Positions 1,119 to 52,362 of a stretch of DNA of 64,000 nucleotides are shown here, one piece after another. The notes under the pieces are model-generated. The model was not told the origin of the DNA and did no database searches. It worked only from the letters and a program-made list of their open reading frames with translations. The position numbers and the translations under genes were made by a program. Source of the DNA: Bacteroidaceae bacterium (GTDB lineage Bacteria; Bacteroidota; Bacteroidia; Bacteroidales; Bacteroidaceae); contig JAFZSP010000033.1 in the NCBI GenBank assembly GCA_017619335.1, forward strand, positions 124,001-188,000, given 5' to 3'. Positions within the stretch are counted from its first letter, which is position 1, and every line of letters starts with the position of its first letter.

Positions 1119-1223
1119 AAATGGTCCACGGCCCATGCACGACGTGGTCGTCAGTGCGGTGACAATCGCCGTCAGGATGGTGATGACGATGTCCAGAATT
1201 CGCTTCCAAGTTTCCTTTTTCAT
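1116..1223 (-). CDS. Smalltalk-type small membrane peptide
   Basis: A 35-residue frame (ATG 1221-1223, TAA 1116-1118) begins MKKETWKRILDIVITILTAI and continues VTALTTTSCMGRGPF. It has a basic N-terminus, one hydrophobic helix of about 18 residues and a small C-terminal SCM motif. This matches the pattern of the Bacteroidota peptide family called smalltalk, whose function is unknown. The expected neighbours of that family (HU-like protein, N-acetylmuramoyl-L-alanine amidase) are not here, so it stands as an orphan inside a repeat-rich region. Its leader (1241-1275) and stop both sit in 7-bp arrays. Confidence 0.75.
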   Translation of the reverse strand: MKKETWKRILDIVITILTAIVTALTTTSCMGRGPF

Positions 1224-1779: not shown

Positions 1780-1986
1780 CCTGACACCTGACACCTGACA
1801 TCTGACATTGCGGAAAATCGATGTGAAAAATAAAGTGTCATCTGACTTTTACCTTATATTATATAATAATATAAATATTATTATATAATATAAGGTAAAC
1901 ATTAATCTCCATCTTTTCCACATAGAGCGTTTTAAATAATAGAAAACAGAAATGTCAGATGTCAGGTGTCAGGTGTCAGGTGTCAG
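1780..1986. repeat. Long inverted repeat of 7-bp units around a 50-bp palindrome
   Basis: The left arm 1780-1809 is built of CCTGACA units. The right arm 1951-1986 is its exact complement over 29 bases and carries one further unit. Between them, 1849-1898 is a perfect palindrome of 24-bp AT-rich arms beginning TTACCTTATATT with a 2-base centre. No gene is inside. It may be a cruciform or transcript hairpin, a miniature element, or an invertible segment; the sequence alone does not decide. Confidence 0.7.
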
Positions 1987-2368: not shown

Positions 2369-2399
2369 TTGCTTTTTTCGTCATTTTCCCCTATCTTTG
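2369..2399 (+). promoter_or_regulatory. Bacteroidota-type promoter for the 2624 gene
   Basis: TTG at 2369-2371 and TATCTTTG at 2392-2399 are 20 bases apart, matching the -33/-7 consensus of the main Bacteroidota sigma factor. It predicts a leader of about 220 bases before the start at 2624. Confidence 0.65.
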
Positions 2400-2623
2400 T
2401 ACCCGATTTCACAAAATCACAGCACTTTCACGCCCCAAAAGCACGGCAAAAGCACCAAAAAGAACGAAGTGTCCCCCAACACTGATGTCCCCACGTTCCG
2501 GATGGTGCAACTTTGACATAATAAGCAGCATCACATCTGGCCCCCAAGCTGGATGATATGATTTTACAATATATTCTTACTCAATTAATAAATTCTACAA
2601 ATTTTTAAATCGTACAACAAAAA

Positions 2624-4921
2624 ATGAAAAAAAATCTCTTAAAGAAAACATTGCTCCTGCTACTCGCCCTCGTAGCAGGTGGTGGAAGTGTGTGGGCGAC
2701 AGACCCTGACTTAACACTAGATTTTACGTCAGCTTGGACTGATGGTGGAACCAACTCAAGTAGTGAACAGGTCTTTACCAAGACTGTTGGAACAACCACC
2801 TACACCATTTCAGGTACTGGTGGGGCGAACTTCAAATTCAATACAGGATATTTTTTCTTTGGTAAGTCTGGAGCCTATATAAATTTGCCGACAGTTGGCT
2901 TTGATGTTGAAAAAATTGAAGTTGTTGGAAATAGTGGAGCATCAGCTAAGACAACAATGAACATCTATGTTGGGACAGATGCTGTTAGCACAGAAACAAC
3001 AGGTAGCACAGGGACTAACAGCTATACTATTGCATCAACCAAACAGACTGCTGGTACCCAATATATCTTAAAGGTTACGAATGCAAATAATGCTCAAGTA
3101 ACTTATATTAAATATTATAAGAAAGCCGCCGTTGATTTGACATCTTTTGCTTTTGATAATACCACTCCTTCTGTGACCTTGAGCAAGAGTGGTTCGACAT
3201 TCGATGCAAGTTATTCACAGGCTGTTACTGTAGCTCCTGCTGCTTATGACGGAACCATCTCATATTCTTTTGACGAAGGTAGCTCTACGTTTGATCTAAG
3301 CAAAGCTGACATTGATGGAGCAACCGGTGATGTCGAAATATCAGCCGATGCAAACATAGCTTCTGCTCAGACTATTGTTGTCAAAGCAAGTGCTACTGGA
3401 ACTGATAAATACAAAAAGCCGGCCGATGCCACCTATACGCTGACTGTTAACCCCGCTCCTGCTGGCGTTGGAACTCCTGAATTCTCACAGGCCGAAGGTA
3501 GTTATTATTATGGTACAACCTTCACCATCAGTTCTGCGAACTCAAATAAGATATACTATACAACAGATGGCTCTGACCCATCTAAGACGAATGGAACGCT
3601 CTATGATGGTGCCATCGCCATCACCTCTACAGTCACCGTGAAAGCTATCGGTTACGACGGCGATACAGCAGGTGAAATCGGTTCTGTGACCTATACACTG
3701 AAAGCTCCCGAGGTTCCCACGTTCTCTGTTTCCGGTGGTGGTGTGACAGAAGGTACTAGCGTAGTATTAGAAATGGGCGACGGTGGAACAAAGGTTGTCT
3801 ATACCACAGACGGCACAGATCCCACTGCCAGCTCTACAGAATATAGTTCTGCCATCACCATCAATTCACCAGTTACCATCAAGGCTGCAACAGTTGACGC
3901 TGGTAATAATCTGAGCACTGTTGTAACCAATGCCTATACGATAGTGGTAATTAAAGCAATAACTTTGTGGAGTGAAGACTTCGGCACATATAATGCAGAT
4001 GATGTTCCCAATGATAAATACACAATAGATAACGGTGGAGGAACAACAAAAATCTATGATGCCACATTGGCAGGTGGTACATCTCCAGAATTGCTAGTTG
4101 CAAAAAACAATGGATACCTTAAAGCTACTATTCCACTTGACAATAATGTTAGCCCATTGACATTGACTTACAAGGCTAACTATAACTACCTTGAGATTAG
4201 TGTAAAATCAAGCCCGATTGGAGCAACCGTAGGCGAAATCTCCTATGATAGTGAGAAAAAGACGGCAGCTGTAACTATTTCTCATGTGACAGAGAGTATG
4301 ACATCAATAGATATTACATTTACTAATTCCAATAAAAGCAGCAACTGCCGTCTGGATAACATCCTGCTGACCTACAACAAGCAATTTAATACAGAACCCG
4401 TCACTGTCACTGCTGCTGGTTACGCCACGTATGTAACACCTTATGCTATTGACTTCACAGGTGTCAAAGCTTACAAGGTTTCTGCCGTTGGCACCAACAA
4501 TGTTACTTTGGATGAGATTACAGAGGCTCCTGCTAATACACCTGTTGTTATCAAGGCTGCTGAAGGTTCTTATAACCTTGCAGTTCAAGCAAGCGCTACA
4601 GCTGTCACTGGCAACCTCCTTCAGGTTTCTGACGGCTCTGTCACTGGTAACGGCAGCACCATTTATGCTCTTGGAAATAAGACGCACGGTGTTGGCTTCT
4701 ACCCTGTAACAAACGGACAGGCTATTCCTGCAGGCAAGGCTTACCTGGTTGATGCAGGTGGCGGTGTGAAGGAATTCCTCGGCTTCGGCGATGATACAAC
4801 GACGAAGATCGAGAGCGTTAAGACTATCGAGAACGGCGTGATGTTCAACCTCGCTGGCCAGCGTGTGAACAAGGCACAGAAGGGAATCTTCATTGTGAAC
4901 GGAAAGAAGGTTGTCCGTTAA
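2624..4921 (+). CDS. Secreted multi-domain protein with chitobiase-like Ig repeats and sorting-type tail
   Basis: The protein has 765 residues. A signal peptide is clear (MKKNLLKKTLLLLLALVAGG, cleavage near VWA-TD). Two segments around residues 280-440 carry IYYTTDGSDPS and VVYTTDGTDPT, the signature of the chitobiase/beta-hexosaminidase C-terminal-like fold, which is a non-catalytic Ig-like module. Residues 450-590 look like another beta-sandwich. The C-terminus has MFNLAGQRV...GIFIVNGKKVVR, the short tail shared with other exported proteins in this window. No catalytic motif is recognised, so adhesion or carbohydrate contact outside the cell is only inferred. It is followed after 48 bases by a 58-residue peptide gene in the same direction. 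Confidence 0.8.
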   Translation: MKKNLLKKTLLLLLALVAGGGSVWATDPDLTLDFTSAWTDGGTNSSSEQVFTKTVGTTTYTISGTGGANFKFNTGYFFFGKSGAYINLPTVGFDVEKIEVVGNSGASAKTTMNIYVGTDAVSTETTGSTGTNSYTIASTKQTAGTQYILKVTNANNAQVTYIKYYKKAAVDLTSFAFDNTTPSVTLSKSGSTFDASYSQAVTVAPAAYDGTISYSFDEGSSTFDLSKADIDGATGDVEISADANIASAQTIVVKASATGTDKYKKPADATYTLTVNPAPAGVGTPEFSQAEGSYYYGTTFTISSANSNKIYYTTDGSDPSKTNGTLYDGAIAITSTVTVKAIGYDGDTAGEIGSVTYTLKAPEVPTFSVSGGGVTEGTSVVLEMGDGGTKVVYTTDGTDPTASSTEYSSAITINSPVTIKAATVDAGNNLSTVVTNAYTIVVIKAITLWSEDFGTYNADDVPNDKYTIDNGGGTTKIYDATLAGGTSPELLVAKNNGYLKATIPLDNNVSPLTLTYKANYNYLEISVKSSPIGATVGEISYDSEKKTAAVTISHVTESMTSIDITFTNSNKSSNCRLDNILLTYNKQFNTEPVTVTAAGYATYVTPYAIDFTGVKAYKVSAVGTNNVTLDEITEAPANTPVVIKAAEGSYNLAVQASATAVTGNLLQVSDGSVTGNGSTIYALGNKTHGVGFYPVTNGQAIPAGKAYLVDAGGGVKEFLGFGDDTTTKIESVKTIENGVMFNLAGQRVNKAQKGIFIVNGKKVVR

Positions 4922-6569: not shown

Positions 6570-6613
6570 ATTACTTTGGGGGGGGTATAGTTTTTAATAG
6601 TTTTTGATAGAGG

Positions 6614-6691
6614 GTATAGAAACTATAGAAGCTATAGAGGCTATAGAAGCTATAGAAACTATAGAGGCTAAAGAGGCTATAGAGGCTATAG
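6614..6691. repeat. 9-bp tandem array CTATAGARR
   Basis: Eight full units and one partial unit run in exact 9-bp register (CTATAGAAG, CTATAGAGG, CTATAGAAA variants, one CTAAAGAGG). The last partial unit, 6686-6691, contains the stop codon of sulP (read on the minus strand). The array then forms the leader of the four-helix-bundle gene. Confidence 0.9.
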
Positions 6692-9049: not shown

Positions 9050-9859
9050 TTATGGGATTAATGCTTTCTCGGTGACTTGGAGGACACCGGCGGAGTTGTA
9101 GATGAAGGCGACGACGGCGAGGTGCTCTGGTTTCCAGTCGTCGGGGATGGTGGCAGTGAAGTCCTGGAGGATGGTTTCTGCCTCGGGGAGGGTGATGTCT
9201 GTTCCCCAGGTACCGTTGACGCTGGCGCGGAAGACGTGCTGGTGGACGTAGTTGGGATTGTTGCTGCCATCGGGCATGGCCTGCTGGGCAGTGATGTCAC
9301 TCTCTGTGATCCAGAGCTGTAGCTTGGCGTTCAGGTGTTCATTGCTGAGTGCCTGCACCGTGATATCGGCTTTTCTGCCGGCTTCCTGATAGTCACATAT
9401 CAAGATGAGCTCGATGGGCGATGGCTGCTGGACGGCAGTGCGTACCATCTCGTCCCACTTGTCGATGGTGGAGATACTGCCGGTGCGGTTGATGTAACCC
9501 GTGGGTTCCTCCTGGACGCCCCAGTGTTCATAATAGGTGTCGCCCTCCTCTGTGCGCAGTCCCAGGATCTTGCCACGTGAGAAGACGGCGAGGGGCCCGG
9601 AATGGATACCAACAGCGATGATGGCGGAGTCACCATATTCCTTCTTCAGCTGGGCGATCTTGTCGGCGGCGTTGGGGCAGTTGATGCAGCGCTGTCCGGT
9701 GAAGTCCTCGATGAGCACGGCACGGCGGCTGTCGGGGAGCTTCTCGTGGATGAGGCGGTCTTCCAAGGCAATACCGGTGCAGGCCGTCACACAGAGTGCG
9801 GCGAGGGCAATGAGTGCAATGTAAAATGTATGATGTAAAATGTATAAGGGTCTGCGCAT
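9050..9859 (-). CDS. Omp28-related outer-membrane lipoprotein
   Basis: 269 residues from ATG 9859; a TTG six bases earlier is a weaker start. The lipobox is LCVTAC near residue 26. The mature protein opens with VLIEDFTGQRCINCPNAADK, the thioredoxin-like CxxC segment typical of Omp28-type proteins, and continues with beta-sandwich sequence. It sits between the DUF6029 barrel and a secreted protein, the usual arrangement of this cluster in Bacteroidota, suggesting an envelope complex. The signal peptide residues YILHHTFYIAL are encoded by a 7-bp array (9816-9850), which is unusual. Confidence 0.8.
   Translation of the reverse strand: MRRPLYILHHTFYIALIALAALCVTACTGIALEDRLIHEKLPDSRRAVLIEDFTGQRCINCPNAADKIAQLKKEYGDSAIIAVGIHSGPLAVFSRGKILGLRTEEGDTYYEHWGVQEEPTGYINRTGSISTIDKWDEMVRTAVQQPSPIELILICDYQEAGRKADITVQALSNEHLNAKLQLWITESDITAQQAMPDGSNNPNYVHQHVFRASVNGTWGTDITLPEAETILQDFTATIPDDWKPEHLAVVAFIYNSAGVLQVTEKALIP
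9816..9850. repeat. 7-bp array encoding a lipoprotein signal peptide
   Basis: Units GCAATGT, AAAATGT, ATGATGT, AAAATGT, ATAAGGG are read in frame on the minus strand as the n/h-region of the Omp28 lipoprotein signal. Confidence 0.65.
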
Positions 9860-9862
9860 GGG

Positions 9863-9904
9863 CAATCAATGTATAATGGACAATGGAAAATGGAAAATGA
9901 TGAC
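9863..9904. repeat. 7-bp array in the Omp28 leader
   Basis: Units CAATCAA, TGTATAA, TGGACAA, TGGAAAA, TGGAAAA, TGATGAC fill the gap between the DUF6029 stop (9908) and the Omp28 start. Confidence 0.65.
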
Positions 9905-35771: not shown

Positions 35772-35801
35772 CAAAGGTACAAAATATTTCACAATTCTCA
35801 A
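35772..35801 (-). promoter_or_regulatory. Bacteroidota-type promoter for rpsA
   Basis: TTG (35801-35799) and TACCTTTG (35779-35772) are 19 bases apart, 73 bases before the rpsA start. The -33 element lies inside a 7-bp array. Confidence 0.65.
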
Positions 35802-35818
35802 TTCATAATTCACAATTA
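35791..35818. repeat. 7-bp array at the rpsA promoter
   Basis: Units ACAATTC, TCAATTC, ATAATTC, ACAATTA. Confidence 0.65.
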
Positions 35819-35896
35819 TTTTTCATTACCACGACTTTTCCCTGCATTTTCTGCGAAAAGACCCTCAAAAACAGCAATTGGCCACGGTTTCACGCA

Positions 35897-35945
35897 GCCA
35901 ATTGCCAATTATTCATTGTTAATTATTAATTTTTAATTATGAATT
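35897..35945. repeat. 7-bp array, seven units
   Basis: GCCAATT, GCCAATT, ATTCATT, GTTAATT, ATTAATT, TTTAATT, ATGAATT in exact 7-bp register, directly after the zinc-ribbon gene stop (35954, minus strand). Confidence 0.85.
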
Positions 35946-35953
35946 AAGAGCTC

Positions 35954-36789: not shown

Positions 36790-36824
36790 GTAAAATGTAA
36801 AATGTAGAATGTAAAATGAATCTA
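36790..36824. repeat. 7-bp array between Nif3-like and zinc-ribbon genes
   Basis: GTAAAAT, GTAAAAT, GTAGAAT, GTAAAAT, GAATCTA. It starts 5 bases before the zinc-ribbon ATG and ends in the Nif3-like stop codon (minus strand). Confidence 0.8.
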
Positions 36825-43133: not shown

Positions 43134-43168
43134 GTGAATTGTGAATTATGAATTATTAATTGTGGATG
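43134..43168. repeat. 7-bp array upstream of rhaD promoter
   Basis: GTGAATT, GTGAATT, ATGAATT, ATTAATT, GTGGATG. Confidence 0.8.
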
Positions 43169-52217: not shown

Positions 52218-52299
52218 TTTATCTGTCGTTTTATGTGTCAGGATGAAGAAAAAAGTGTAACTTTGCGCGCAAAATGACAAAGAAGCACTCATCTTTAAG

Positions 52300-52362
52300 C
52301 TCCAAACACTCAACTTTAAACTCAAACTCTAAACACTAAACTCTAAACACTAAACTCAACAA
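52300..52362. repeat. 7-bp array forming the slyD leader
   Basis: Nine units including CTCAAAC, TCTAAAC, ACTAAAC, TCTAAAC, ACTAAAC, TCAACAA end two bases before the ATG at 52365. A TAACTTTG -7 box lies at 52258-52265. Confidence 0.85.

Follow-up and report, generated by a model that had tools for sequence, protein, structure and literature searches.

Dispersed intergenic palindromes of the REP/REPIN type are associated with Y1 transposases (RAYT), and proteins of the HU type are known to bind cruciform DNA. Among the MITEs, BrickBuilt of Porphyromonas gingivalis possesses short terminal inverted repeats resembling those of known IS elements as well as internal 23-nt repeats, according to the available part of the corresponding publication (PMC4596501). 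PINSR of Prevotella intermedia, a dispersed element of 188 bp that was judged to be non-coding, has no terminal inverted repeats according to the accessible text of PMC4755523. Furthermore, the part of PMC8604942 at hand describes template switching as a process homogenising the arms of inverted repeats.

In this study, a double palindrome was analyzed that is located in a stretch of 64,000 nucleotides from the genome of a Bacteroidaceae bacterium (assembly GCA_017619335.1, contig JAFZSP010000033.1, positions 124,001 to 188,000 of the forward strand), referred to as the window. It belongs to a family of short non-coding elements that occupy intergenic positions in relatives of Bacteroides and Prevotella from gut and rumen. 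The element is conserved by its architecture and occurs in the GTDB family holding Prevotella communis and Bacteroides ilei. No earlier description of it was found in the open papers searched, and a search of PMC2267715 for names of Bacteroidota yielded none.

Architecture of the Element within the Window

The outer arms of the element (window positions 1780–1809 and 1951–1980) comprise 30 nt each, are 100% complementary and lie 141 nt apart. The left arm (1780–1809, plus strand) is composed of four heptamer units of the form CCTGACA/TCTGACA followed by TT and represents the exact complement of the right arm, an inverted array of about five heptamer units on the minus strand (1951–1987). Expressed as 7-bp arrays, 4.0 units were counted at 1780–1807 and 5.1 units at 1952–1987, the right array thus being approximately one unit longer. 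Between the arms, a spacer of 38 bp (1810–1847) leads to the AT palindrome of the core (1848–1899), which is built as 25+2+25 (1848–1872 and 1875–1899) and is followed by a second spacer of 51 bp (1900–1950). The two spacers pair partially with each other in the predicted fold. The initial annotation had correctly described the arms as exactly complementary 7-bp arrays, and it had recognised both the outer inverted repeat and the perfect AT palindrome; the lengths it gave for the arms (29 bp) and the core (24+2+24) were slightly too small.

Folding of positions 1780–1986 as single-stranded DNA resulted in a predicted stability of −58.8 kcal/mol, compared to an average of −14.79 for 200 shuffled sequences (z −13.88), none of which was equally stable. 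The other strand, treated as RNA, gave a value of −98 (z −14.79). No open reading frame of at least 50 aa is located wholly within 1780–1986, so that, as in MITEs, there is no gene inside.

Adjacent to the right arm, a flank at 1988–2016 is common to further copies of the element in the source genome (contigs C74 and C16, partly C6) and was duplicated together with it. On the opposite, outward side, imperfect 22-bp repeats of the type GCAAACGC..GCGAA extend over 1625–1712 on the minus strand; such repeats were also observed on the outward side of the copies on C13, C70 and C35. Other arrays with 7- or 9-bp units are common in the window (6607–6691, 9818–9899, 35788–35946, 36790–36818, 43134–43164 and 52286–52357). 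Inverted pairing of these arrays around a core was covered only by a tile control, which was negative.

Copies of the Element in the Source Genome

The source genome (3.59 Mb in 103 contigs, with the window located on contig C40) was searched for further copies. A full-length copy (96%) was identified on C74, and a further one on C70 (92%) covers most of the element. Another copy is probably split by a contig break between C6 and C13, whose ends share sequence and are not joined. Moreover, partial copies are located at the ends of contigs C36, C35 and C16, and a lone array was found on C37. In the C70 copy, a C/G pair near the core ends reads A/T on both arms; the same change was observed on the one arm of the C36 copy, whose contig ends inside the core.

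The double palindrome of the window therefore is one copy of a dispersed family. The initial annotation had named the lack of any other copy, of inversion and of transcripts as the outcome that would reduce the locus to a chance product of array duplication, and the further copies exclude this origin. Short tandem arrays are indeed common in the window, which would favor such a product; it is contradicted not only by the copies but also by the controls for fold, pattern, arms and HU-HIG upstream regions, leaving practically no probability for it.

A second palindromic repeat beginning with CTCAAGTTTCGCAAGTA interrupts the copies on C70 (L004/L042) and C6/C13 (L020/L003) at the same point, with TCTATTA on both sides. 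A sequence similar to this repeat is present at approximately 792–832 of the window, where it overlaps the 3′ end of an ORF ending at 811. Contigs C16, C35 and C36 end inside the element, while C6 and C13 end in the repeat inserted into it. The element may therefore matter for genome assembly, since it may cause assemblies to break.

In all informative copies, the shared outer flank is accompanied by one and the same inner spacer, namely at four of four left ends (C40, C74, C16 and C6) and at six of six right ends (C40, C74, C13, C70, C36 and C35). The left flank of C70 differs, is uninformative for orientation and was left out. Likewise, at four of four loci represented in two species each (L135/L140, L189/L195, L206/L207 and L116/L150), one orientation runs through the element in both species. 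The perfect inverted arms would suit an invertible switch, as had been considered initially, but a single orientation at 10 of 10 informative ends in the source genome and at the four two-species loci makes inversion between the arms extremely improbable.

Distribution and Common Plan in Related Genomes

Elements of the family follow a common plan of about 190–210 bp, consisting of a tandem array of 7–9 bp units, a spacer, an AT palindrome, a second spacer and the same array inverted. A first BLAST search within the genus revealed matches in 14 of 139 genomes (the source genome included), mostly to the core. Loci L052–L054, L057, L063, L066 and L067 proved to be true elements, in which arrays quite unlike those of the window surround the matched core; the matches L056, L058, L060–L062 and L064 were without the plan. 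The core pattern TTATATTATAT-N(0-30)-ATATAATATAA was present in 37 of 139 genomes of the genus, compared to three of 139 for the non-complemented reverse control. In the family, it was detected in 38 of 399 genomes representing eight of 30 genera. Since the reverse control matched 12 of these 399 genomes, isolated matches beyond the genus carry less weight than the following test of the flanks.

For this test, 100 loci were taken (L100–L222 being pattern matches among the matches listed), of which 93 remained after removal of loci with less than 100 bp on a side. A score of at least 33, corresponding to the 95th percentile of swapped flanks, served as cut-off for inverted arms and was reached by 84 of the 93 loci among the matches listed. 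Left arms exceeded the 95th percentile of tandem-repeat controls in 86 of 93 cases, array periods were mostly 8 (39 loci), 7 (22) or 9 bp (15), and the medians amounted to 36 and 37 bp for the spacers and 40 bp for the core, all among the matches listed.

When 84,980 species genomes were screened for a longer core, at least 117 stretches were obtained, from which 80 loci (by their titles, 66 from Bacteroidales and 14 from other taxa) were used; 59 and 13 of them, respectively, offered at least 100 bp per side. Among the matches listed, inverted arms were found at 55 of 59 Bacteroidales loci versus one of 13 others, and a clear period of 6–10 bp at 48 of 59 versus one of 13. Compared to the other core matches, the element is thus in excess in Bacteroidales. 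Hosts among the matches listed include P. communis E15-14, Bacteroides ilei, Mediterranea, Marseilla and Caecibacteroides. An order-level search with a longer pattern matched none of 198 genomes (three of them from the same family), a weak negative because this pattern also misses the genome of the window. No match was obtained in the phages searched and no exact match in viral contigs, and a plasmid search produced two matches, both short, in Kovacikia and Cupriavidus.

In the merged sets, inverted arms, corresponding to the terminal inverted repeats of MITEs, are present at 126 of 138 unique Bacteroidales places among the matches listed. The arrays are site-specific, with 69 types distinguished by shared 12-mers among these 126 elements, again among the matches listed. 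The arms are, however, not sequence-free: those of 98 of 126 elements among the matches listed contain CA[GTA]T[TA], in contrast to 31 on average in shuffled sequences, which hints at a sequence-reading factor.

Allowing up to two mismatches, the motif TTCAGGAAAAGACA was matched 20 times in 107 loci. For twelve of these matches, including those in L106, L105, L112, L133, L153, L147 and L197, the distance to the core is 60–83 bp, which places the motif close to the outer end of the array. In several loci the motif is preceded by GAGTCAACC.

The description as a miniature element in the initial annotation fits these findings, as several dispersed copies exist and the locus belongs to a class of nested inverted repeats with many members. 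A strong rival explanation regards the family as a purely selfish, non-autonomous, MITE-like element whose inverted arrays are its ends, which is moved in trans, lands between genes and whose effects on genes are incidental. Similar copies occur several times in one genome, and L108 and L159, which stem from different species, share a 191-bp unit (92% identity) bounded by the outer ends of the arrays, their flanks being unrelated. Furthermore, 40 outward ORFs beside elements without an HU-HIG gene appeared unrelated to each other by eye. However, no target-site duplication was seen by eye at the three loci L103, L108 and L159, the stretch shared by L127, L141 and L143 extends past the arrays and includes a promoter-like box, no partner enzyme was recognised in the neighboring gene clusters, and arm sequences vary between elements, unlike ends that are bound by one transposase. 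On balance, we consider a selfish element possible and the foremost alternative, with the odds against it.

Sequence Turnover under a Constant Shape

The two arms of an element were 0.933 identical on average (84 elements among the matches listed). Arms of different elements averaged 0.47–0.66 identity when their spacers were less than 0.7 identical, and 0.71–0.91 above this value. In L133, L135, L136, L188 and L126, the unit reads GTTGCAG, GCTACAG, GTTTCAG or GTGACAG and is altered along both arms, one arm of L126 departing in part from the unit change.

The interior of the palindrome changes even among related copies: of 19 pairs compared, 18 differed, the exception being L223/L294, which are alike. 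Copies at L135 and L140, from two species, agree at 140 of 140 positions in arms and spacers, their core interiors reading TA and AT. For three further loci in two species each, the corresponding values are 139 of 140 with interiors of 3 versus 12 nt (L116/L150), 139 of 140 with 9 versus 27 nt (L189/L195) and 137 of 140 with 14 versus 16 nt (L206/L207). Four different core interiors were observed in L127, L141, L143 and L144. These rapidly changing interiors are mostly palindromic, being self-complementary at 545 of 590 half-positions and perfect in 58 of 92 cases among the matches listed.

Template switching between the inverted arms would account for both the matching of the arms and the turnover of the core. 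In L144, the left flank repeats the right one in inverted form, with arms of 85 nt, which is the product expected from such switching. Template switching alone, however, leaves the presence of 7–9 bp tandem units with a constant spacing to the core unexplained.

Genomic Placement and Promoter-Like Boxes

The elements are intergenic and often located upstream of outward promoter-like boxes. Among the matches listed, the box TANNTTTGC was found in outward direction on 96 of 200 sides versus 13 of 200 in inward direction, some sides being short. Outward boxes are commonest 120–180 bp from the core. The boxes were assigned according to what we take to be the Bacteroidota promoter consensus. In the window, an outward box TATCTTTGT (2392–2400, plus strand), which is promoter-like by its match to this presumed consensus, precedes an ORF at 2624–4921.

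The orientation of the boxes bears on the idea that the element acts as RNA, i.e., as a nested hairpin in a transcript with a protective, attenuating or regulatory role. The very stable predicted fold and the pairing of arms across divergent sequences are in line with this idea. However, the promoter-like boxes predominantly point away from the element, and no Rfam family reached its gathering score over positions 600–2700 of the window, where only sub-threshold matches, mostly to microRNA models, were obtained. A function as RNA is therefore considered improbable.

HU-HIG and Smalltalk Genes in the Neighborhood

One gene family recurs beside the elements, namely HU-HIG, which encodes a particular HU-type DNA-binding protein. 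An HU-HIG-like ORF was detected near 28 of 166 loci among the matches listed, every one reading away from the element; the underlying profile was seeded with two proteins, and the assignment to PF18291 was checked in Pfam for these two. Expressed as unique places, HU-HIG was found near 26 of 151, and near 17 of 65 with long flanks, which leaves 125 and 48 places, respectively, without an HU-HIG ORF in reach (all among the matches listed).

Upstream regions of HU-HIG genes were examined for a palindrome with inverted arms, the core motif being unused. Such a structure was present in 17 of 78 regions from 11 genomes versus none of 443 control tiles, bearing in mind that nine of the 12 genomes considered had been chosen for having elements and that six of the 17 positives were already known via the pattern. 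The dataset consisted of 80 regions (those of long proteins and stronger matches, ordinary-sized HU being omitted), which came from 11 genomes out of the 12; two regions were too short. Positive regions were obtained for G357, taken to be P. communis (8/16), G123 (3/9), G104 (2/8), G444, taken to be B. ilei (1/6), G418 (1/10), G210 (1/4) and G011 (1/5), the last of which is without core-pattern matches. No element was found upstream of HU-HIG in the source genome (0/9), G015 (0/5), G099 (0/4) and G088 (0/2). Regions upstream of other genes contained an element in only two of 106 cases (Fisher p 1.1e-5), with the element that had brought each locus in being omitted from this control. Both control positives represent the second element of L458, one of whose two genes is itself HU-HIG. 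Elements are thus in excess upstream of HU-HIG genes.

A smalltalk protein of 31–32 aa (NF033879) is encoded downstream of HU-HIG in P. communis. Over approximately 1 kb, five such cassettes (L452–L456) have 81–94% identity; a single element is common to L452 and L456, and the other cassettes stand behind three further unrelated arrays. The HU-HIG proteins of L454, L455 and L456 are approximately 99% alike by normalised alignment score and lie behind unrelated arrays, indicating that proteins and arrays do not form matched pairs. In addition, similarity of HU-HIG proteins did not correlate with similarity of arrays (Mantel r −0.07, p 0.77, for 18 of 44 HU-HIG proteins), which fits recognition of structure rather than of sequence. 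A sequence-specific pairing of each HU-HIG protein with its own array was rejected on the basis of these two results.

The occurrence of the cassettes L452–L456 at several dispersed sites of G357 gives the impression of a mobile gene pair. By eye, repeats resembling the 22-bp type of the window were noticed in the 5′ leaders of their HU-HIG genes.

Within the window, a smalltalk ORF of 35 aa (1119–1223, minus strand; NF033879, E 2.8e-11) is located 630 bp from the core and reads away from the element. HU-HIG matches were absent from contig C40, with 11 occurring elsewhere in the genome. Smalltalk ORFs were found near 13 of 166 loci among the matches listed, all in outward direction and all accompanied by an HU-HIG match, so that the window, featuring smalltalk alone, represents an exception.

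The combination of 7–9 bp arrays, an AT core and HU-HIG neighbors also recalls iteron-type origins or incompatibility-like sites. In such sites, the arrays would act as iterons, the AT palindrome would melt with assistance by HU, and array diversity would avoid cross-talk between co-resident copies; elements L150–L158 of genome G104 indeed possess mostly different arrays. However, large ORFs, which we take to be primase/VirE-like, occur near only three of 66 and two of 20 loci, copies are single and chromosomal, and similar HU-HIG cassettes follow unrelated arrays. An origin-like role accordingly appears very improbable.

Proposed Role of the Element

Taken together, we propose that the element is a dispersed cruciform or hairpin module whose shape would be maintained by copying from arm to arm and which may be read by an HU-type protein, an explanation to which we assign a probability of roughly 45%. 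The putative cruciform put forward by the initial annotation would agree with the dispersed copies and with membership in an extensive class of nested inverted repeats. In the proposed sequence of events, arms and core would fold into a nested hairpin or cruciform in single-stranded or negatively supercoiled DNA. Pairing of the arms would then permit template switching during replication, by which a change in one arm is copied into its partner; slippage would spread a changed unit along the array, so that the sequence drifts while the shape persists. Folding, template switching and slippage are regarded as likely. As a guess from gene neighborhood only, selection may act on shape and position, with a structure-specific HU-type protein, such as the HU-HIG encoded at many loci, binding the cruciform and tuning the neighboring promoter. 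The numerous places without HU-HIG (125 of 151), the source genome, in which the link consists solely of the smalltalk gene, and the CA[GTA]T[TA] motif common to most arms argue against this role.

In a broader and rather unlikely version, the elements would form a class in which shape is the hereditary identity, each site having an array and a palindrome interior of its own that are rewritten symmetrically by hairpin-mediated copying. Architecture, spacing and position next to promoters would be under selection because HU-HIG-type proteins read the cruciform, resulting in a structure-addressed regulon of the Prevotella/Bacteroides family.

Since searches for repeat families usually rely on shared sequence, a family conserved by architecture is missed by them and would stay unannotated. 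Moreover, hairpin-mediated mutation in gut bacteria is naturally recorded in the fast and mostly symmetric change of the core. For the multi-copy HU-HIG and smalltalk protein families, the link to the element would also provide a candidate target on DNA.

Comparison with Known Systems

Like the dispersed intergenic palindromes of the REP/REPIN type, the elements are palindromic, dispersed and located between genes. An association with RAYT was rejected, since Y1_Tnp was present in 16 of 37 pattern-carrying and 46 of 102 other genomes (overlap determined by hand); in G015, which features seven pattern matches, no Y1_Tnp was found. MITEs such as BrickBuilt are likewise short and dispersed and combine inverted ends with internal tandem repeats. 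In contrast to BrickBuilt, as far as it is described in the available part of PMC4596501, the ends of the present element are themselves arrays of 7–9 bp units with site-specific sequence, arranged around a palindromic core. PINSR resembles the element in size, dispersal, apparent lack of coding capacity and occurrence in Prevotella, but the element possesses inverted arms, a feature that PINSR lacks in the accessible text of PMC4755523. The HU-HIG/smalltalk pairs (PF18291, NF033879) often have elements just upstream, as in P. communis; these pairs, however, are protein genes, and most elements were not found beside them. Finally, inverted repeats homogenised by template switching share the correction from arm to arm with the family described here. 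Whereas that process, in the part of PMC8604942 at hand, concerns mutation in ordinary yeast sequence, in the present case a whole class of elements seems to have been shaped by it.
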